Part shown: positions 2,844-31,974 of the stretch, piece by piece
Layout: every line of letters begins with the position of its first letter
Position numbering within the stretch: the stretch's first letter is position 1
NCBI GenBank assembly: GCA_947628675.1
Contig: CANRAR010000014.1
Span: 1-35,957 of the forward strand
DNA length: 35,957 nt
Reading direction: 5' to 3'
Origin: an uncultured Clostridia bacterium
Lineage (GTDB): Bacteria; Bacillota; Clostridia; Christensenellales; Borkfalkiaceae
Program-made: the position numbers and the translations under genes
The notes under the pieces: generated by a model
Told to the model about the DNA's origin: nothing
What the model saw: the letters and a program-made list of their open reading frames with translations, nothing else
Databases searched by the model: none

Positions 2844-3252
2844 GCAAATTTACGTAATTTTATAAATTTATACTACAAAAATTAAAAAAATTTTGAAACA
2901 AAGGATCGTTTTTGCGTTTTTTATTCATTATCTCTAAATATATTCATTTTTCGCCGTTTGCCGCCCAAAAATCCCATCTTTGCCTGTTTTTCTGCCCCAC
3001 CCCCCTATCGCCCGCACGTATTATGCCGCCCGCACGTATTATGCCGTCGAAGGGCGGCGTGATATTTTTGGGGCAAGGCAGACTTCGTTGTTCGGGATTC
3101 TTCCGTCGCTACGCTCCGTCAGAATGACGCGGTAACACAGGGCAGAGGCGGCGTGATTGGTTCCCGAGGGGGGCGGAAAGGAAGGCTCCCGAGGGGGGGC
3201 GGAAAGGAAGACGGCCGCGGAGGGGGCTTCTCACAAGATATAAAGGCATAAG
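2844..3252. other. Intergenic stretch with an 18-bp tandem repeat
   Basis: I see no convincing gene here. The first 110 bases are AT-rich. At 3010-3045 the 18-mer GCCCGCACGTATTATGCC occurs twice in tandem. Then come G-rich phrases (CCGAGGGGGGCGGAAAGGAAG occurs nearly twice at 3164-3211) and the phrase CAGAATGACGCGG. The reverse complement of that phrase recurs in the 25.4-25.5 kb intergenic region. This looks like lineage-specific intergenic repeat material. Confidence 0.6.
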
Positions 3253-16528: not shown

Positions 16529-16614
16529 CACTTTCCGGAAATTCCGCATTTTTGCCCACCGTCCTCTCCCCCTCATCCGCCGCCTGTTCGCTCTTTCTCC
16601 GTCCGTTATTTTAT

Positions 16615-16647
16615 CCCCCTCCCCGCGGCGTTTCCGCGGGGAGGGGG
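16615..16647. repeat. 14-bp GC-rich perfect hairpin
   Basis: CCCCCTCCCCGCGG and CCGCGGGGAGGGGG enclose the 5-nt loop CGTTT. No T run follows on either strand. It lies between the feo operon end and the protease promoter. It resembles the other GC hairpins of this window but lacks their conserved flanks. Confidence 0.75.
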
Positions 16648-16682
16648 ACACAGGGGGCGGGGCATAAAAATGCAACCAAACC

Positions 16683-24282: not shown

Positions 24283-24295
24283 TTCTTCCGAAAAG

Positions 24296-24328
24296 ACTGC
24301 CCTCTCCTCGGGGAGGGCAGTTTCTTTT
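24296..24328 (+). terminator. Rho-independent terminator of the PFOR gene
   Basis: ACTGCCCTC and GAGGGCAGT (9 bp) around an 8-nt loop, followed by TTCTTTTT, 13 nt after the stop codon. Confidence 0.92.
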
Positions 24329-24370
24329 TGCTCTCCCCATACTGTCCCCTGCCCTGCCCCACTCCACGAC

Positions 24371-24402
24371 AAAAAAGAACGATTGCAAGGCCGTTCTTTT
24401 TT
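24371..24402. terminator. Second, bidirectional terminator hairpin
   Basis: AAAAAAGAACG and CGTTCTTTTTT pair over 11 bp around a 10-nt loop. The A and T tracts make it usable on either strand. It backs up the PFOR terminator. Confidence 0.82.
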
Positions 24403-24404
24403 TG

Positions 24405-24471
24405 TCCCTCCTCATACCGAGGCGGCGGTTCCGTCCGCCATTGCGGACGGAACCGCCGCCGAGTGTATCTT
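24405..24471 (+). repeat. Conserved-flank hairpin element, copy E1
   Basis: The left flank is TCCCTCCTCATACCGA. The perfect 18-bp stem GGCGGCGGTTCCGTCCGC (24421-24438) pairs with 24443-24460 around the loop CATT. The right flank is GAGTGTATCTT. The flanks match the elements at 25702, 30028 and 31864, while the stem sequence differs. Confidence 0.85.
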
Positions 24472-24491
24472 GCCAAACCCTTGTAAACCTA

Positions 24492-24520
24492 TTGACAACC
24501 CCGTCTTTCTGTGTTATACT
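24492..24520 (+). promoter_or_regulatory. Sigma-A promoter of the YugP-like gene
   Basis: A perfect TTGACA (24492-24497), a 17-nt spacer and TATACT (24515-24520), 24 nt before the ATG. Confidence 0.85.
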
Positions 24521-24544
24521 GCCCGAAAAGGAAAGGAGGCCACC

Positions 24545-25369
24545 ATGCAAAAGCTGCTTTTGAGTATTTTCGACGATTGGGCGGCGGAATTGGGCGTCGG
24601 GCTCTGGCTCATTTTTGCGCTTCTCGTCGTCGGGATCGCCATCGTCGTCGCAAGTATCGTATTCGGCATCTTGCGGCTCATCATCGCGTGGAATTATTGG
24701 ATCGCGCGCAAGCCCATTGCGAGCGGCATCACGGGCGAACAGGCGGCGCTCAACGTCTTACAGCGCTTGGGCATCACCGACGTCAAGGTGGAAATGGAGG
24801 GCTTTTTCCGCGCCCTCTTCTACAACAACCACTACAATCCCTCCAAAAAGACGATCTATCTCCGCAGGACCACCTTCTATGGGAGAAACGTCTCGGCGGT
24901 GGCGCTTGCGGCACAGAAGGCCGTGCTCGTGCGGCAAGACAAGGAGGACAGCGCGAAGTTCCGCGCGCGGTGGAGATTGCAACAGTGCGCGGTATTCGGG
25001 CCCATGTTCTTCATTCCGCTCGTCCTCATCGGGCTCGTCATCGACCTCGTCCTGACCCTCAACGGAATAGATTTCACGGGTATCGCAACGCTGATCATGA
25101 CGGCGATCGGGCTCGCGTTCTTCGTCATAGCCATGGTGCTCGCCGGGCTGACGGTCTCGGTGGAGCGGCGCGCCACGCGCGAGACGATCGAACTTTTGCC
25201 GCAGACGGAACTCTTCCAGCCCGAGGAAATCGACAAGGCGGAGCGGGTGCTGAAAACGTACATCCTCGCGTACATCACCGACTTCATCATCGCCATCCTG
25301 AAACTCATCCAGTTCATCCTCAAACTCCTCCTTCAAATCTTCGCCCTGTTTACGAATAAGGATAATTAG
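24545..25369 (+). CDS. YugP-family membrane protein with a destroyed zinc protease site
   Basis: The 274-residue protein starts at ATG 24545 with a strong AAGGAGG site. It follows the YugP (zinc_peptidase_2) pattern: N-terminal helix, SGITGEQAALNVL near 60, GITDVKVE near 77, HYNPSKKTIYLR near 96, YGRNVSAVALAA near 112, then two to three C-terminal helices and a VLKTYILAYITDFI segment. Active members have AAHEVGHAIQD at the position that here reads AAQKAVLVRQD (122-132), so all three HExxH residues are gone. The downstream LPVEFxAS motif is also changed (LTVSVERRAT). Promoter, ribosome site and frame are intact, so I read it as an expressed pseudo-protease, not a decaying gene. Its role is unknown; it could be a scaffold or regulator of an active homologue. 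Confidence 0.88.
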   Translation: MQKLLLSIFDDWAAELGVGLWLIFALLVVGIAIVVASIVFGILRLIIAWNYWIARKPIASGITGEQAALNVLQRLGITDVKVEMEGFFRALFYNNHYNPSKKTIYLRRTTFYGRNVSAVALAAQKAVLVRQDKEDSAKFRARWRLQQCAVFGPMFFIPLVLIGLVIDLVLTLNGIDFTGIATLIMTAIGLAFFVIAMVLAGLTVSVERRATRETIELLPQTELFQPEEIDKAERVLKTYILAYITDFIIAILKLIQFILKLLLQIFALFTNKDN

Positions 25370-25645
25370 CGCTCACCCTCGGAAACCAACTCACCGCCCC
25401 CTTATCCCACGCGTCATTCTGAACTCACCACCCCCCTCCTCGGGAGCCTTCCTTGAGGCTTTCGGGAAAGGCGACCTATGATATGTGGAGCCTTTCTCCG
25501 CAATGGGGGTGCCCCGTAGGGGCGGGGGTGGGGTAGCCGCGTCATTCTGCCCCGCCCGCACTATTTTCGACTAAGGGCGGCACGAGCGGCACCGCCGCGA
25601 AGTAGCCGCCGCCCGCGAAATCACCGCGTCATCCCCCCATCCTTC
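25370..25645. repeat. Intergenic repeat cluster after the YugP-like gene
   Basis: No gene is seen. The stretch holds two CGCGTCATTCTG phrases (about 25410 and 25537) and a third shorter CGCGTCATCC (about 25627). The phrase at 25577-25604, GCGGCACGAGCGGC then ACC then GCCGCGAAGTA, is also found at 8184-8211. There are also short G/C-rich hairpins. It is the same class of material as in the 3.1 kb and 8.1 kb gaps. Confidence 0.65.
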
Positions 25646-25676
25646 GACCCGCCCCAATCGGAGCGGGTCTCCTTTT
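25646..25676 (+). terminator. Possible terminator for the YugP-like transcript
   Basis: GACCCGC and GCGGGTC (7 bp) around a 10-nt loop, followed by TCCTTTTA. It lies 276 nt after the stop, so it would only be a late terminator. Confidence 0.5.
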
Positions 25677-25701
25677 ATGTACCCCGCCCGCTTCCTCCCC
25701 A

Positions 25702-25766
25702 CCCTCCTCATCCCGAGCGGGGCGCCCGCCGCGTTTTGCGCGGCGGGCGCCCCGCGAGCGGATCTT
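25702..25766 (+). repeat. Conserved-flank hairpin element, copy E4
   Basis: The left flank is CCCTCCTCATCCCGA. A perfect 17-bp stem starting GCGGGGCGCCC (25717-25733) pairs with 25739-25755 around the loop TTTTG. The right flank is GAGCGGATCTT, then TTTC. A C9A8 tract follows at once. Confidence 0.85.
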
Positions 25767-25771
25767 TTTCA

Positions 25772-25788
25772 CCCCCCCCCAAAAAAAA
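25772..25788. repeat. C9A8 homopolymer pair
   Basis: Nine C then eight A lie between the convergent YugP-like and GH127 genes. It is one of three nine-base C/G runs in the window. Being outside genes, it has no obvious effect. Confidence 0.9.
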
Positions 25789-25812
25789 GCCCGCCCTTCC
25801 CCATACAGAAAA

Positions 25813-25837
25813 GCGCCGCGGCCAAAAGCCGCGGCGC
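25813..25837 (-). terminator. Terminator of the GH127 gene
   Basis: GCGCCGCGGC and GCCGCGGCGC form a perfect 10-bp stem with a 5-nt loop. On the minus strand TTTTC follows. It lies 22 nt after the stop codon. Confidence 0.82.
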
Positions 25838-25859
25838 CCTCTTTCCCCCCTTACATCGA

Positions 25860-28800
25860 TCATCCCGCATACGCGATGATGATATACGCAAGGTTGATGC
25901 ACTTATCTCCCGCCACCTCATTCACGGGGTTGGTGACATCCAGCGTCAGCATCCCGTCCGTGATGTTCACGGTAAAACTCACTTCCTGCCCGCAGGCGGC
26001 GTTGGTGAGTTTATTCGTCCCGTTCGCCGCCACGTCGGCATTTTTGGAGCACTCCCACGGGTCGGCAAAGTACATCTTCACCGTGTAATTGCCGTTGGGC
26101 AAGACGAATTTGTACGAAAGTTTCATCGCCGTCAGTCCGCACTCGTATTGGTTCTTGGTGTAGCGGTTGGAGATCGTCTTATCCGCGCCGTCATCCACGT
26201 CCTCTTTCGCCCACGTGCTGTTCGTGGAGACCCCGCCGTTCGGCACTTGCCCGCGTATCGCGTCAGCATTTCCATGCGGCGTGGAATAAGCAAGCCCCGT
26301 GCCCCAGGTCTTGTTATATTCGTCCACAACGCCCCAACTTGCGCCCGTTACTGCGTCCGCACCGAACACTTGGTCGGTGACCGACTGAAACAGCCCGAGC
26401 GTATCCCCCGAAGAGAGCGTCGTGGGGTCGTGATCGCCGCAGTCCACAAAGTAGGCGATGCTGCCCTGTTTGAGTTCGCGGGTGAGCGTATTGAACGCAC
26501 TCACGACCCTCGCGGAGGCCTGCCCCGCCACTTTGCTCTCGATCTTGATGAGAATGCAGTCCATTTCTCTCGTGTCGATGGTTCGTTTCGTCGCCCCGTT
26601 CACGACGTCCTTGGGAATGGGGATATACACCTCGTACATGGTGTCCGTACCCGTATAGTTGAGGGTCGCCGAGAAGATCACCTTGCTCCCCACGCTCATC
26701 TTGATGGTCTTGCCGTTGTCGGCCTTCATGAAGTTGGTCATGAGGTAGTTGACGTCCGGCTTGCTCTTATCCACGCCCATATAGTAGGAGAAGGAGCCTC
26801 CCGCGTTGGCATAGCGGCTGGTCTCGGAATCGGCGCCCGTGCTGTTCGTCGCATTTATCATGCGCTCCGACGTCTCATATTGCCCGCGTCCGGGCTGGAT
26901 GGAATCGACGGTTCTCTCTGTGAAGCCGTTGTCCGTGTCGGGCGCAGAGTCCTTGCCGATAAAGCGGAAGTAGAGCGAATACCGCTGCGTGTGCTGCTTG
27001 TAGTGGATGGAGTAGGTGAGCGGGCCGCCCTCGATGCCCGTCAGGGTGAACTTGCCGTCCTCGCCCCGCGCCATATAGGTGTTGATGTTGGCCTTGAAGT
27101 CGCTCATGGAGTCGTTGGAGATGTTGTAATCCTCCTTCAATCCCGCGAGTTTGTTGGGCACTTCGATGGAGCCCGCCCAGCCGTGCGTACCGCTCTTCAT
27201 GTTCTCCGTGCCGAGTTCGGCGGAGAGCACGTAGGGGCCGTACTTAAAGGCATACACATTCTGCGCGTCGGGCAGGTTGTGCATCGTGATCTGCTTGCCG
27301 AGGGTGAGTTCCACTTCCGCGCCGTCGGAGACCTTCACGGAGACGAAGTCCCCGCTCTCCGAAACGTCCAGCGCCTCGCCGTTGAGTTTCACCTCGAATC
27401 TCGTCGTCCAGTCGGGGCGGCGCAGGCGGAGAATTGTCTCCCCGTCCTCCACTTTCACGGTCACCTTGTCGGAGTTCTCGAGGTCGGCGGTCATCGTCAG
27501 CGAGACGTCCTCCGTCTTATACGTCGAACTCATATACATCGCAACATACGTCGCATTGCCTGCCGTGTAGTAGATGCTGTCGCCGAGTTTGGACATACTC
27601 TCCATGCCGCTGCCCGTACAGCACCAGAAACTGCTCTCGGGCGTGGAGTACGTCTTATAGTAGCCCGAGGCCATGGGCTGGAAGTACATCGTCATGCCCG
27701 TCTCGGGGTTCTGCGACGAGAGAATGGCGTTGATATAGGTGTTCTCGTAGTAGTCGAGATATTTCTTATCCTTGGTGAGCGAGAACAGCATCCGCGTCAG
27801 TTTCAACATATTGTAAGTGTTGCACGTCTCGCAGTTGTCGTAGTCGCGGTACCTGTTCTGCGTATCGTCGGCGCGGAAGTGCTCGTCCTCCGAGTTGCCG
27901 CCCGTCACATAACTCAAATGCTCCACGACGCGCGTCCAGAAGTTTTCGGCGACTTCGAGATACATCGAGGGCTTCGAGGCGCGCCCGCCAATTTGTTCGG
28001 TCACACCCTCTATGGACTTATCCTTGGTCTGGATGTAGCCGTTGAGAAGCCCGATGATCTTGGGAATGGTCGTGTTGGCGTGTTGCCCTTGGAGATAGTT
28101 GTTCGTCTCGTTGTTGTACATGAGTTCCACCATCGACGTCTGCGAAAAACTCCCTTGCGTGGGAATATCCTCGTCGAATTGGTGCGCCGCAACGGCGTAC
28201 TTCTCGTCGCCCGTCACGGCATAGAGGTTATAGAGGCAGTCGTTCATGCCCCCGTATTCGGTGGAGAGAACTACCCGCCTCTTCGCCTCGGTCCAATCCG
28301 TCACGCGGTCATACGTCCAGTCGCCGAGCGCCTTCGCAACGGTGAGCGCCTCCTCGCTGCCCGCGAGCCTGTACGCGTCGATGAGCCCCGCGAGGATCTT
28401 GTGCATGGTGTACCACGGCACCCACGCCTCGGTATTTATATTCGTTTTCCCGATCTCCACATTGTCGAATTGGAACTCCACATTCGAACTGTTCGTCTTG
28501 TTTCCGCCCCACAAAAAGCCCGCCTCCGCCTTGCGGGGATTGCCGTCCACGCCGCTCTCGGCTTGGCACAGACCGAGTTCGCTCACGATGTAGTCGAGGC
28601 GGGTCTTGAGTTGCTTCTTTTTGGCGTCAGGCGTCCCGCCGTTTGCGTACGCCTGCGAGAGCGCCGAGAGGTAGTGCCCCATCGTGTGCCCCGCAATGAG
28701 GGAGTTCTCCCACGAGCCGCTCCCGCTGTACTTCTGCGCGCCCTGTACGCTCAGCCCCGCGTTGTCGCGGAAGTTGTAGAGGAGCCGCTTCGCATCGAGG

Positions 28801-29021
28801 GAAAGGAGATAGGTGATTTCCTTTTCGAGCGCATTTGCGGCATACGCATCGGTGTCGGCGACCGCCCCCATATCCGCATAGGAAATGGCGCCGCTGTCCT
28901 CCTCCGCCGTCAATCCGTCGCTGCCGCCGCCGCACCCCGCGAGCGTCCCCAAAAGGATAGGTACGCAAAGTAAGGAGGCAACCGCCGAAGCAACCACTCT
29001 CTTTCTGATGGAATGTTTCAT
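25860..29021 (-). CDS. GH127-family beta-L-arabinofuranosidase-like lipoprotein
   Basis: The protein has 1053 residues from the ATG at 29021 (GGGGAGA 10 nt upstream). The signal peptide ends in LAGC, so Cys30 is lipidated and the enzyme is exported. The catalytic region matches GH127 (former DUF1680). It carries NCETC with Glu398 and Cys400, and FWCCTGSG with Cys467 (nucleophile) and Cys468; these are the Glu and Cys ligands of the zinc-thiolate site. Beta-sandwich modules follow. The last about 150 residues look like a malectin-type carbohydrate-binding domain (YSTPHGNADAI...NGNYTVKMYFADPW). It likely removes L-arabinofuranose from plant arabinan, arabinoxylan or glycoproteins outside the cell. 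The exact linkage is inference. An AraC regulator is divergently transcribed, consistent with sugar-controlled expression. Confidence 0.9.
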   Translation of the reverse strand: MKHSIRKRVVASAVASLLCVPILLGTLAGCGGGSDGLTAEEDSGAISYADMGAVADTDAYAANALEKEITYLLSLDAKRLLYNFRDNAGLSVQGAQKYSGSGSWENSLIAGHTMGHYLSALSQAYANGGTPDAKKKQLKTRLDYIVSELGLCQAESGVDGNPRKAEAGFLWGGNKTNSSNVEFQFDNVEIGKTNINTEAWVPWYTMHKILAGLIDAYRLAGSEEALTVAKALGDWTYDRVTDWTEAKRRVVLSTEYGGMNDCLYNLYAVTGDEKYAVAAHQFDEDIPTQGSFSQTSMVELMYNNETNNYLQGQHANTTIPKIIGLLNGYIQTKDKSIEGVTEQIGGRASKPSMYLEVAENFWTRVVEHLSYVTGGNSEDEHFRADDTQNRYRDYDNCETCNTYNMLKLTRMLFSLTKDKKYLDYYENTYINAILSSQNPETGMTMYFQPMASGYYKTYSTPESSFWCCTGSGMESMSKLGDSIYYTAGNATYVAMYMSSTYKTEDVSLTMTADLENSDKVTVKVEDGETILRLRRPDWTTRFEVKLNGEALDVSESGDFVSVKVSDGAEVELTLGKQITMHNLPDAQNVYAFKYGPYVLSAELGTENMKSGTHGWAGSIEVPNKLAGLKEDYNISNDSMSDFKANINTYMARGEDGKFTLTGIEGGPLTYSIHYKQHTQRYSLYFRFIGKDSAPDTDNGFTERTVDSIQPGRGQYETSERMINATNSTGADSETSRYANAGGSFSYYMGVDKSKPDVNYLMTNFMKADNGKTIKMSVGSKVIFSATLNYTGTDTMYEVYIPIPKDVVNGATKRTIDTREMDCILIKIESKVAGQASARVVSAFNTLTRELKQGSIAYFVDCGDHDPTTLSSGDTLGLFQSVTDQVFGADAVTGASWGVVDEYNKTWGTGLAYSTPHGNADAIRGQVPNGGVSTNSTWAKEDVDDGADKTISNRYTKNQYECGLTAMKLSYKFVLPNGNYTVKMYFADPWECSKNADVAANGTNKLTNAACGQEVSFTVNITDGMLTLDVTNPVNEVAGDKCINLAYIIIAYAG

Positions 29022-29063
29022 TTTTTCAAAATCTCCCCTTTTTTCGGTTTTTTTGTTCAGCCC

Positions 29064-29092
29064 TTGTATTTTCCGAAAATATATGCTATCAT
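29064..29092 (+). promoter_or_regulatory. Promoter of the AraC gene
   Basis: TTGTAT (29064-29069), a 17-nt spacer and TATCAT (29087-29092). The palindrome ATTTTCCGAAAAT (29068-29080) sits in the spacer and is a candidate regulator site. The -10 box lies 1 nt from the opposing -10 of the GH127 promoter. Confidence 0.65.
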
Positions 29093-29093
29093 C

Positions 29094-29122
29094 ATTATAG
29101 AAAAACACGGCGCAAAAAGCAA
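29094..29122 (-). promoter_or_regulatory. Promoter of the GH127 gene
   Basis: On the minus strand TTGCTT (29122-29117), a 17-nt spacer and a perfect TATAAT (29099-29094), with about 65 nt of leader. Its transcript start falls inside the AraC promoter, so the two cannot be occupied together. Confidence 0.75.
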
Positions 29123-29157
29123 TCTCATTACGCCATGCGAGGGTATCAAAAAGTAAG

Positions 29158-29964
29158 ATGTTACACTTCGATTTGCGGGTGCCCATCGATATGCTGTGGT
29201 TCGGGGAATTCATCTCGCCCGCCCGCGGCTGGAAGCACCTCACCCGCCGCCTCTACGAGTACGAGATGATGATCGTCACCGAGGGCGAACTTTTCATCGC
29301 CGACGAAGATCGGGAGTACGAAGTCCGCGCGGGGGAATATCTCATCATGTCGCCCACGCGCTTCCAGCACGGCACGAGGGAGTGCAAATGCCGCTTCTAT
29401 TGGATGCACTTCCACTGCCCCGCCCTGCCCGCGAGCGTCTCGCTCCCGCCGCAGGGAACTTACGAAAATGCGCAAACGCTGCGAGTTTTAGCGTCCATGC
29501 TGCTCGCCTCGGAGGCGGAAGCGCCCCGCTCCACGCGCTCCAAATACCTCGCAACGCAGATCCTCATCGAACTTGCACGGGGGCACGAAGAACGGGAATC
29601 GGAGGGCGCCCCGCCGCGGAAATTGCTGTGCGAGAAGGTCAAAAATTTCGTCTCCTTCCACCGCTTCTCCGAGATCCGCGTCCGCGACGTCGCAAGGGAA
29701 CTCGGCTACCACGAGAAGTACCTCTCCGCCGTCTTTCACGAGACGGAGGGCGTCACGTTGAAGCACTACATCACGGCGCAGCGAACCGCCGAGGCAGAGC
29801 GCCTTTTATTGGAGACGCAGTACACCGTCGCGCAGGTCGCCCTCTACCTCAACTTCGAGAGCGCACACAACTTTTCCCGCTTCTTCAAGAAGGCGACGGG
29901 CTCCTCCCCCGTCGAATTCCGCCGCTCCCACCACCCTTCCCACCGCCCCTCCACTCCTCTCTAA
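29158..29964 (+). CDS. AraC-family regulator, probable control of GH127
   Basis: The 268-residue protein has a cupin-like sensor domain (about 1-105; EGELFIADEDREYEVRAGEYLIMSP and the WMHFHCP strand) and a C-terminal pair of HTH motifs (about 165-262; VRDVARELGYHEKYLSAVF and TVAQVALYLNFESAHNFSRFFKKATGSSP). This is the standard layout of sugar-responsive AraC activators. It is divergent from the GH127 gene, so L-arabinose or an arabino-oligosaccharide is a likely effector by inference. The ATG at 29158 has only GAGGG 12 nt upstream. Confidence 0.9.
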   Translation: MLHFDLRVPIDMLWFGEFISPARGWKHLTRRLYEYEMMIVTEGELFIADEDREYEVRAGEYLIMSPTRFQHGTRECKCRFYWMHFHCPALPASVSLPPQGTYENAQTLRVLASMLLASEAEAPRSTRSKYLATQILIELARGHEERESEGAPPRKLLCEKVKNFVSFHRFSEIRVRDVARELGYHEKYLSAVFHETEGVTLKHYITAQRTAEAERLLLETQYTVAQVALYLNFESAHNFSRFFKKATGSSPVEFRRSHHPSHRPSTPL

Positions 29965-30027
29965 TCCCCACCGCCCCCACTATAATCCCATCCCTTTGTA
30001 CCCCCTCCACCCCTCTCTGATCCCCCA
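29965..30027. other. Pyrimidine-rich gap after the AraC gene
   Basis: This gap is C/T-rich. I see no gene, hairpin or promoter before the E2 element. Confidence 0.5.
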
Positions 30028-30094
30028 TCCCTCCTCATACCGAGCCCTGCCGCCCGTCCGCAAAAGCGGACGGGCGGCAGGGCGAGCGTATCTT
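30028..30094 (+). repeat. Conserved-flank hairpin element, copy E2
   Basis: The left flank is CCCTCCTCATACCGA. The perfect 18-bp stem GCCCTGCCGCCCGTCCGC (30044-30061) pairs with 30066-30083 around the loop AAAA. The right flank is GAGCGTATCTT. It lies between convergent AraC and DUF1858 genes. Confidence 0.88.
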
Positions 30095-30213
30095 TCCCTA
30101 ATGGCAGGGGCAGACTCTGAACTCCACTTGGCAGGGGTAGGCTTTTATCTTACCCTCCCCCCTTCCCAAGGGGGAGGGCGCGGGAGGGGGTTCCCCTCGG
30201 GCAGCGCCCCTCA

Positions 30214-30251
30214 TAAAAAAATCGGCGCGCCGCACCCACGCGACACGCCGA
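30214..30251 (-). terminator. Terminator of the DUF1858 gene
   Basis: On the minus strand TCGGCGTGTCGC pairs with GCGGCGCGCCGA (12 pairs, two G-T wobbles) around a 6-nt loop, followed by T7. It lies about 40 nt after the stop. Confidence 0.88.
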
Positions 30252-30289
30252 ATTTCTTCAAATTTCCCCCGCGCAAACCGCGCGGCCTT

Positions 30290-30487
30290 TTATTCCACCC
30301 CTTCGTTGAGTTTTTCCAAGAGTTCGTCGAGGTCTTTGCCGTGGACGGCGACCGCCTCCGCAATGGTCTCGCCGTGGGCGAGGGCGCAGCCGAAGCAGTG
30401 CATCCCGGCGGAAAGCAAGATCTCCGCCGCGTTGGGGTTGCGTTCAAGGCACTCCGCAATGAGGGTGTCCGCCGTAATTTTCGCCAT
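30290..30487 (-). CDS. DUF1858 redox-disulfide protein
   Basis: The protein has 65 residues from the ATG at 30487 (AAAGGAG 8 nt upstream). It matches the DUF1858 / hybrid-cluster-protein-associated domain: ADTLIAECLERNPNAAEILL, then GMHCFGCALAHGETIAEA, with a CxxC pair near residues 30-33. The family is thought to act in redox or metal chemistry in anaerobes and is often found near hybrid cluster proteins, but none is encoded here. It is monocistronic, with its own promoter and terminator. Confidence 0.9.
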   Translation of the reverse strand: MAKITADTLIAECLERNPNAAEILLSAGMHCFGCALAHGETIAEAVAVHGKDLDELLEKLNEGVE

Positions 30488-30514
30488 ATGTTTTACTCCT
30501 TTGATTTTTTCTTT

Positions 30515-30543
30515 ATTGTACCACAAAAAATCGCCGTATGCAA
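30515..30543 (-). promoter_or_regulatory. Promoter of the DUF1858 gene
   Basis: On the minus strand TTGCAT (30543-30538), a 17-nt spacer and TACAAT (30520-30515). Confidence 0.78.
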
Positions 30544-30560
30544 CAATTTGCAACAATTTG
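30541..30560. repeat. Tandem 10-mer overlapping the -35 box
   Basis: CAACAATTTG occurs twice head to tail, overlapping and extending just upstream of the -35 of the DUF1858 promoter. A regulator binding two adjacent helical turns would fit, but none is known here. Confidence 0.7.
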
Positions 30561-31091
30561 CTTGAATTTCCCCTTCACGTTCACATCTCTTCCCCGCCGA
30601 CTTTTTATGTATTCAATATAAGGTAGAACTTTCTCTCCTCTATCCCCTCATCCTTCTCCTGTTACTCTATCCTCTCGCCCCTCTCACTTCTTTGTCCTCT
30701 CTCACCCTTCTCTTACTATACTACTCCGTCCACCCCCATCCTCTCTCGCTTCTCATCCCCCCATTTCTTTCTCTTTCTACTCTATCCTCTCGCACTTCTC
30801 TCTTCTTTGTCCTCTTTCACCCTTTTCTTACTATACTGCTCCGTCTTCTCCCACCTCGCCGTCCCCCTCGACCTCTCACTCTTTCTTGTCTTTACTGTCA
30901 TCGGCTTCATTATTTTATTCGTTTTTTTGATGCGCCCCGATCCATATCTACTCACAGTAGAATTCTATCATCCTCGCCTTTTTACTGCACTTCCCACCCG
31001 TAGGGCGTTGCACCACCTCCGTCAACGATAAACCAAAGCGCACAACCAACCGCCCCGCCTCATCGTCGCACCAGTCTTTGTCCCAAAAAAA
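30561..31091. other. 531-nt gene-free polypyrimidine region with a 115-bp-spaced duplication
   Basis: The plus strand is strongly C/T-rich between about 30625 and 30890. The 68 bp at 30663-30730 recur at 30778-30845 with 6 differences and no indels. Frames across it give low-complexity Leu/Ser/Pro peptides with no ribosome site, so I call no gene. The last 200 nt are less biased and show nothing recognisable. Confidence 0.7.
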
Positions 31092-31547
31092 TCACAGCCC
31101 GATGAGCCAATAAATAAGCCCCACGGCGGCGCCGGCGCTCACGCCGAACACGATGATGGGCCCGGCGACCACAAACATCTTTGCGGCCATGCCATAGACG
31201 AACCCCTCGGTCTTAAACTCGATGGCGGGCGAGGCAACGGAGTTGGCGAAGCCGGTAATGGGGACAATGCTGCCCGCGCCGGCGTTTTTGCCGATGCGGT
31301 CATAGACGCCCACCCCCGTCAAAAAGGTGCCGAGGAAGATGAGGATGGCGGAGACGGTCCCCGCGAGCACATCGCCCGTCAGCCCCGCCATTTCGAGCAT
31401 AAAACGGAAGAATTGCCCGATGCAGCAGATAAAGCCGCCGACGAGGAAGGCTCTGCCGCACGTTTTGAAGTGTTGGGTGGGCGGGTCGAAAGAATTGACG
31501 TAGTTGATGTAGTTGCGGTTATAGTTTTCTTTGGAGCGGCCCGTCAC
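31092..31547 (-). CDS. spoVAC: Stage V sporulation protein AC
   Basis: The 151-residue membrane protein matches SpoVAC: FLVGGFICCIGQFF near 37, LGTFLTGVGVYDRIGKNAGAGSIVPITGFANSVASPAIEFKTEG, and AGPIIVFGVSAG in the last helix. SpoVAC forms the dipicolinic acid channel in the inner spore membrane. The start is set at GTG 31547: GGGAGG lies 10 nt upstream and the GTG overlaps the stop of the preceding small frame (GTGA). The usual partners spoVAD and spoVAE do not follow within the window; only the polypyrimidine region does. Either they lie elsewhere or the set is incomplete. Confidence 0.88.
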   Translation of the reverse strand: MTGRSKENYNRNYINYVNSFDPPTQHFKTCGRAFLVGGFICCIGQFFRFMLEMAGLTGDVLAGTVSAILIFLGTFLTGVGVYDRIGKNAGAGSIVPITGFANSVASPAIEFKTEGFVYGMAAKMFVVAGPIIVFGVSAGAAVGLIYWLIGL

Positions 31548-31672
31548 GGTTTCAGCGCCTCCCTGTCGGGGTGCGGAAAGCAAACCTCGCCCTTTTTCCC
31601 ACCCGCCGCCGGAAAACACGCCTCGCGTTCATCGACGGACTGCGCGGGGATCTTCCCGATGATTTTCTTCAT
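31544..31672 (-). CDS. Putative 42-residue protein coupled to spoVAC
   Basis: The frame MKKIIGKIPAQSVDEREACF...DREALKP ends in a TGA that overlaps the spoVAC GTG by 4 nt. I see no ribosome site before the ATG at 31672. The peptide has two Cys and no membrane segment, and I do not recognise it. It may be a leader peptide that couples translation to spoVAC, or a chance frame. An upstream-extended start is possible. Confidence 0.4.
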   Translation of the reverse strand: MKKIIGKIPAQSVDEREACFPAAGGKKGEVCFPHPDREALKP

Positions 31673-31772
31673 GCCAATACTTTGGGAAACGCGCCCGCAT
31701 TTTATACATCCCGCCCCGTTCCCCATATCCGCCGCCCCCCCTTATACCGACCTGCCCGCCCCGACATTACCC

Positions 31773-31818
31773 CCGCCGCGCGCCGCCTTCTCCCGCGGGA
31801 GAAGGCGGCGCGCGGCGG
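31773..31818. repeat. 46-bp perfect palindrome (E5)
   Basis: Bases 31773-31795 and 31796-31818 are exactly complementary (23 bp per arm, centre CCGCGG). Upstream is CTTATACCGACC, which resembles the left flank of elements E1-E4. Downstream, CTTCGGACATGGTACCCCCATTTT resembles ACTTCGGTACCTCCCCGCCCATTTT at about 32017-32045. It lies upstream of the spoVAC unit. Confidence 0.8.
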
Positions 31819-31863
31819 CTCCGGCTTCGGACATGGTACCCCCATTTTCCTTCATATGACCTT

Positions 31864-31934
31864 CCCTTCCTCATACGCTCACCGTGCGCCCGCCGACGCA
31901 AAGCGTCGGCGGGCGCACGGTGAGCGTATCTTCC
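31864..31934 (+). repeat. Conserved-flank hairpin element, copy E3
   Basis: The left flank CCCTTCCTCATAC runs into a perfect 27-bp stem (31873-31899 with 31903-31929, loop AAA) that takes in part of the flanks. The right end is GAGCGTATCTTCC. Unlike E1, E2 and E4, the flank bases next to the stem (GCTC/GAGC) also pair. Confidence 0.85.
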
Positions 31935-31947
31935 ATTATGTGGAGAC

Positions 31948-31974
31948 CGCCGCCGCGGCAGAGCCGCGGCGGCG
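31948..31974. repeat. 12-bp perfect GC hairpin (E6)
   Basis: CGCCGCCGCGGC and GCCGCGGCGGCG around the loop AGA, 14 nt after E3. About 30 nt further on, CGGGGAG and CTCCCCG (32008-32039) can enclose another stem. The whole 31.7-32.06 kb gap is packed with hairpins and holds no gene. Confidence 0.75.

Follow-up and report, generated by a model that had tools for sequence, protein, structure and literature searches.

How does a hairpin keep its base pairs while the sequence of its stem changes from one copy to the next? The question is raised by four palindromes, E1 to E4, lying within 35,957 nucleotides of an uncultured Clostridia bacterium (GCA_947628675.1, contig CANRAR010000014.1; this whole stretch is hereafter the window). 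The first-pass annotation of the window had described four hairpins in identical orientation with perfect stems of 18 (E1), 17 (E4), 18 (E2) and 27 bp (E3), all of which are confirmed (Table 1), and had posed an alternative: selection acts on the pairing, or each arm is a copy of the other. This was the question to ask, and on balance the evidence favours copying: the two arms change in a matched way, some left arms have been turned into the exact complement of the right flank (hereafter "rectified"), and inverted loops are in excess. We consider it fairly probable that E1–E4 are copies of a palindrome dispersed between genes, with a CCTC tag and a long stem, which is a variant of the CGTC-tagged repetitive extragenic palindromes (REPs) or closely related to them, and whose arms are kept complementary mainly by template switching.

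Fixed ends around a variable stem

As single-stranded DNA the four elements fold with z-scores of -7.9 (E1), -7.0 (E4), -7.8 (E2) and -14.0 (E3), and for each of them none of 200 shuffles folds equally well. A pattern made of the flanks only, without any pairing requirement, matches 41 places in the 1.53-Mb genome of origin (G000) against 0 for the reversed pattern; thus the family is not a product of chance. Three of these places are window copies repeated on contig C23, and in three others the match spans short copies or an element that is not clean. C23 repeats a region of the window (contig C14), with copies of E1–E3 at equal spacing and 100% identity over 1651 bases, and it was excluded from the comparison of inner hairpin tips with other GC-rich hairpins and from the counts of rectified forms and of gene contexts given below.

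A stricter pattern is present in 12 of 101 genomes of the genus, the control giving 0 in each. It occurs 82 times in G047, 46 times in G008, 33 times in G000 and 1–7 times in each of the other nine, some of which hold short forms in identical copies (7/7 in G095, 4/5 in G059). Among 80 of 114 stretches listed, most come from rabbit-gut "uncultured Clostridia" assemblies. Eleven matches from other records, inspected by eye, show no such hairpin, and within the window Rfam gives no match over gathering score.

The anatomy of the family was established on fetched stretches of three congeneric genomes, with one mismatch tolerated per flank. From the flanks alone 156 copies were found; six with inner parts above 56 nt (two joined elements or misfits) were dropped, leaving 150. 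The layout is a CCTC tag, an ATAC/GTAT foot, a tandem G·A mismatch, the variable stem, a bulged Y and a CTT tail. The conserved flanks of the first-pass annotation are shared, but their description was incomplete: they pair with each other as a foot, followed by the tandem G·A and the bulge. In E3 there is no CCGA motif, since the left arm of this copy complements the right flank exactly.

The tag is CCTC in 147/150 copies. The foot is ATAC/GTAT in 144, with matched variants ATTC/GAAT in two and ATCC/GGAT in one; AT...AT is kept in 149, the exception being ACAC/GTAT. The left CGA is found in 147 copies, the right GAGT or GAGC in 145, and CTT after the foot in 149, this tail being itself part of the search pattern. 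In 127/150 copies the free hairpin opens with a G-C, A-T or G·T pair, so both G·A steps mostly lie in a pyrimidine-GA-purine context, which is stable in DNA. In 106 copies the inner hairpin is long, usually 13–20 bp with a maximum of 26 bp, not counting the 5-bp foot and its internal G·A motif. The other 44 are short, and 30 of them have GNA loops (GCA 14, GTA 9, GAA 6, GGA 1). Loops are mostly of 3–4 nt. Where two copies lie close together, they form dimers with the tags outside in 21/25 cases (among the 80 of 114 stretches listed).

Two-sided changes, rewritten arms and inverted loops

Pairing was scored in the 106 long-stem copies (inner parts of 22–56 nt); rectified copies lie outside this set, the search having required CCGA with at most one mismatch per flank. 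Fully Watson-Crick stems are seen in 74 of the 106. Over the whole set there are 1691 Watson-Crick pairs and 43 defects among 1734 stem positions (2.5%), namely G·T in 18 cases, A·C in 14, another mismatch in 6 and an unpaired base in 5. The earlier statement that not one pair is broken thus stands for E1–E4 and does not extend to the family.

Within 14 copies of equal length, 36 changed cells are two-sided against 3 one-sided, and 99.4% of the cells are paired, a value reached in none of 500 shuffles; sliding the partner by 1–3 columns lowers the pairing to 24–53%. The kind of change was classified on near-neighbour pairs, which are not independent: 40 of 74 two-sided changes are of the transversion type, and 31 of 40 classifiable one-sided changes are transitions. 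A G·U step does not account for the two-sided changes, because that route predicts transitions.

In G000 four distinct copies (E3 and copies on C9, C13 and C22) have the left motif replaced by the complement of the right flank. The same is seen in one copy of G008 and, by eye among the matches listed, in three of G047, one of these with an A·C in the rectified part; another listed G047 copy, only partly rectified, was not counted. The total is eight cases. The list behind the G047 cases is complete for G000 and elsewhere consists of the matches listed, with no rows for G008 or G046. The reverse form, a right arm rewritten from the left, was seen neither in the fetched DNA, which holds 136 native copies, nor among the listed places.

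Comparisons at the same locus allow some of these changes to be read directly. Contigs C20 and C43 of G008 carry one locus, with about 89–92% identity around the element: one contig has CGA, the other ACTC, the complement of its own GAGT, and stem and loop are unchanged. In the family-B element (a sister family, see below) adjoining this pair, the ends are kept and the inner hairpin is different. The G008 assembly seems to be a mix of two strains, the source of this native/rectified pair. In a syntenic interval of G008 and G047 the loop is the same and the stems differ by a single base pair, both halves of which are missing in one of them. Two compensated pairs separate E1 from its G008 counterpart, the latter having an AAAA loop and a degenerate tag. 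G047 has a different element farther along, and no element is found in the printed stretch of the 17 other relatives shown. A compensated change from A-T to C-G between species is also observed in a non-E hairpin.

Loops were compared under identical 7-bp hairpin tips. Ten of 126 pairs are reverse-complement to each other, for a null mean of 2.9, and none of 5000 randomisations is as high. The C13 copy has the stem of E3 with a TTT loop. Between species, the four-base loop of one syntenic hairpin is inverted; the copy of this hairpin in G000 is without E flanks.

Three proposed explanations: template switching, selection and termination

In the explanation that we favour, the fixed parts are the unpaired tag, the helix of the AT foot, the tandem G·A motif with its bulged Y and the CTT tail, the inner hairpin being free to vary. 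Replication would switch template at the hairpin and copy one arm from the other. Such a switch would turn single mutations, insertions or deletions and even the G·A motif into matched two-arm changes, and it would invert loops. The marks of template switching described in the available text of PMC8794818 and PMC8604942 (matched multi-base changes in two arms, perfected stems, inverted loops) are matched by the arm and loop changes seen here. The hairpins treated there belong to RNA genes and to yeast coding palindromes, in contrast to the dispersed bacterial repeat with fixed asymmetric ends described here.

Alternatively, the stem would serve as a structured site in DNA or RNA (for protein binding, mRNA stabilisation, gyrase or the nucleoid), and selection on ordinary mutations would keep its pairing perfect. 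The very few broken pairs and the strongly conserved ends agree with this, as do the one-sided changes among the closest copies and the position of the copies, which are intergenic and rarer between divergent genes (8/124, against 13–15% of intergenic length on rough gene calls). Yet A·C defects are nearly as frequent as G·T, which argues against selection at the RNA level, where G·U should far outnumber A·C. The frequent transversions among two-sided changes and the inversion of loops also speak against it, and the conserved G·A motif is itself overwritten by the complement of the other arm. Moreover, the G008 counterpart of E1, with its degenerate tag, keeps a perfect, compensated stem. We judge selection on its own, including selection on a DNA hairpin, an unlikely explanation, though one to be taken seriously, and we infer that template switching outweighs it.

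Several observations nevertheless weigh against template switching as the main process. Between copies differing at a single pair (near-neighbour comparison), 16 of 29 changes are one-sided; therefore ordinary mutations arise and last for a while. E3 and the C13 copy have a common stem, and the eight rectified copies may represent seven events. Of the ten inverted loop pairs, seven could equally be read as plain complements, leaving 3 unambiguous cases, against 0 that are complement only and 1 reverse only. In several syntenic intervals (E2, E3 and others) the whole or part of the stem differs; for E2 the G008 interval holds an element with a different stem. Wholly different stems require the replacement or re-insertion of whole hairpins, beyond arm copying. 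Finally, at one syntenic position neither the stem nor the loop has changed. Between the genomes, syntenic intergenic DNA has diverged too far for clean empty sites, which together with target-site duplication characterise miniature inverted-repeat transposable elements.

A role as intrinsic terminators or 3'-end elements had also been proposed, and it appears very improbable. The gene context was drawn from codon-usage gene calls, which are rough; calls based on the length of open reading frames were discarded, as they placed many copies in doubtful frames. Of 143 copies placed, 12 fall in predicted open reading frames and 7 at stretch ends; for the 124 others, the two neighbouring genes are co-directional in 83 cases, convergent in 33 and divergent in 8. 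This distribution, and the fact that the hairpins are GC-rich and often 3' of genes, would suit a terminator, as would the TTTTT after E4, the sole window copy followed by five Ts. But a T-run follows just 12 of 150 copies, and 31 of the 83 copies in co-directional gaps are oriented against the upstream gene. A terminator scan of the region returns none of E1–E4 and reports separate terminator-like sites nearby. E1 itself, between the genes of pyruvate:ferredoxin oxidoreductase and of a putative zinc-peptidase, follows one such hairpin and precedes a promoter-like site, the latter being weak evidence since two such sites are observed in the region for 2.6 expected by chance.

Relatives, spread and neighbouring features

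Dispersed hairpins with variable, compensated stems are found in the double-hairpin elements of fungal mitochondria, which are not known to have such a tag and belong to another type of genome. The first-pass annotation knew of no named element with this pattern, but the CGTC-tagged REPs (Di Nocera, De Gregorio, Rocco 2013, PMC3733652) agree with it in tag, AT foot and arrangement of dimers, though not in the long variable stem. According to the available text of that article, these REPs have an unpaired CGTC tag with TGTC and CCTC variants, complementary A/T in the first two stem positions, a stem of 8–9 bp, a loop of 4–5 and a 3-nt unpaired tail, mostly CCA. They are intergenic, form dimers that are mostly HH (tags outside), have no associated transposase gene, and include the neisserial dRS3 and the rickettsial RPE-4 and RPE-6; their spread is unexplained there also. 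The present elements share the AT foot, dimers with the tags outside and the intergenic position, CCTC being one of the listed tag variants; here too no linked transposase was found, the search covering the Y1 family only. They differ by their stems, mostly of 13–20 bp with a tandem G·A and a bulge, by the CTT sequence of what may be an equivalent short 3' tail and by a stem sequence that varies almost from copy to copy. Their host belongs to the Clostridia, which are not among the five phyla listed in the same text. We thus do not count the element as a plain member of the CGTC-tagged REPs, but as a long-stem variant of them or a close relative. The literature searched, which led to work on GTAG and CGTC REPs, holds no description of the long-stem form. 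The sister family B, CGTC-ATTCT-GA-hairpin-GA-AGAAT, has the CGTC tag itself; it is present in 43 of 101 genomes of the genus and in 14 of 199 sampled from the phylum.

Tagged hairpins, dimers and intergenic dispersal are also features of the GTAG REPs and REPINs moved by RAYT transposases, as set out in the accessible part of PMC6006769, and a search for a RAYT- or IS200-like transposase had been advised. A non-autonomous element mobilised by such a Y1 enzyme would explain the tag at the foot of the hairpin, the tags-outside dimers and the many identical copies of G095 and G059. However, the tag is CCTC, no GTAG being seen, and the genome of origin (93.9% complete) has no Y1 match. Of the 12 genomes bearing the element, 2 have a Y1 match, compared with 22 of the remaining 89; a further set of 13 genomes gave 2, which seem to be genomes already counted. 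None of 10 examined Y1 loci has an element in the fetched flanks, yet the Y1 gene of G047 has one element at a distance of about 1.6 kb. With this family not found in G000 and not associated elsewhere, we rejected such a mobiliser, which is improbable for these elements. In the explanation favoured here, the conserved ends would be what a single-strand DNA enzyme or a replication process recognises as copies spread.

Loss of SbcCD as the cause of long-palindrome survival was likewise rejected, since 96 of 101 genomes, with G000, G008 and G047 among them, have an SbcD match. For the large subunit of exonuclease VII (PF02601), 0 of 101 genomes in the genus have a match above the cut-off, 3 showing weak ones, against 190 of 199 in the phylum sample. 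If exonuclease VII restrains template switching, a role for which the papers searched gave no confirmation, its loss could be permissive, although the enzyme is missing also in members of the genus that have no long stems.

Other palindromes occur in the same DNA. Two further perfect GC-rich palindromes outside the E family flank E3. G000 also has a family of 66–71 bp palindromes with perfect stems of 32–34 bp, A/T-rich ends and stems that vary between copies; a syntenic G008/G047 pair differs strongly and both members are perfect. Another hairpin family of G000, TCCCCCTCCCCG...CGGGGAGGGGGA, is often followed by CACAGGGGGAGGGG. Roughly 280 nt made of an A/T-rich stretch and a large GC hairpin recur beside E elements in both species (L010, L014, L091, L095). 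Comparison of perfect-stem density with other bins is biased, as the stretches were picked around copies.

Table 1. Positions of the E elements, of neighbouring sites and of other palindromes (window coordinates unless a stretch is named)
Feature	Position	Strand	Stem and loop	Description
E1	24410–24471	+	24421–24438 with 24443–24460; loop CATT	CCTC tag, ATAC/GTAT foot, CGA/GAGT motif, CTT tail
E4	25706–25766	+	25717–25733 with 25739–25755; loop TTTTG	CCTC tag, ATCC/GGAT foot (matched change on both sides), CGA/GAGC motif
E2	30033–30094	+	30044–30061 with 30066–30083; loop AAAA	CCTC tag, ATAC/GTAT foot
E3	31869–31932	+	single stem, 31873–31899 with 31903–31929; loop AAA	CCTC tag, rectified left arm
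Family B copy	3093–3131	-	short inner hairpin	CGTC tag, ATTCT/AGAAT foot, GA motif, CCCG tail
Terminator-like hairpin	24294–24323	+		T-run; directly 3' of the pyruvate:ferredoxin oxidoreductase gene, upstream of E1; terminator scan
Second terminator-like hairpin	~24370–24402			A/T-flanked; read by eye, absent from the terminator scan list
Promoter-like site	24492–24520	+		TTGACA, 17 nt, TATACT; 11/12 match; 20 nt past E1
GC-rich palindrome	31773–31818		22–23 bp	flanks E3
GC-rich palindrome	31948–31974		12 bp	flanks E3
66–71 bp palindromes	L099:18665–18735, L106:12054–12124, L112:8853–8921, L113:11777–11843			examples
TCCCCCTCCCCG...CGGGGAGGGGGA family	16614–16648, L111:10579–10615, L111:16868–16904			examples

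How stems remain perfectly paired while their sequence shifts is an old question. Template switching has lately been offered as an answer, mostly on the strength of RNA genes. The E family brings to the question a repeat of bacteria that reaches dozens of copies in a genome, in which the asymmetric fixed ends act as an internal control and same-locus comparisons let the rewriting of arms be read directly. It also extends the CGTC-type REPs, in the available text a class without known mobiliser, to the Clostridia. A bolder proposal, which we put forward tentatively, is that of a self-rectifying repeat: its body would be continually rewritten by template switching, so that sequence drifts fast and pairing hardly decays, only the asymmetric ends would be recognised in spread, and inner hairpins would be swapped between copies through their short common ends. 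If this is true, these repeats would be, in a genus devoid of exonuclease VII, a natural recorder of template-switch events. The observations suggest that the body of the hairpin can be replaced while its ends persist.

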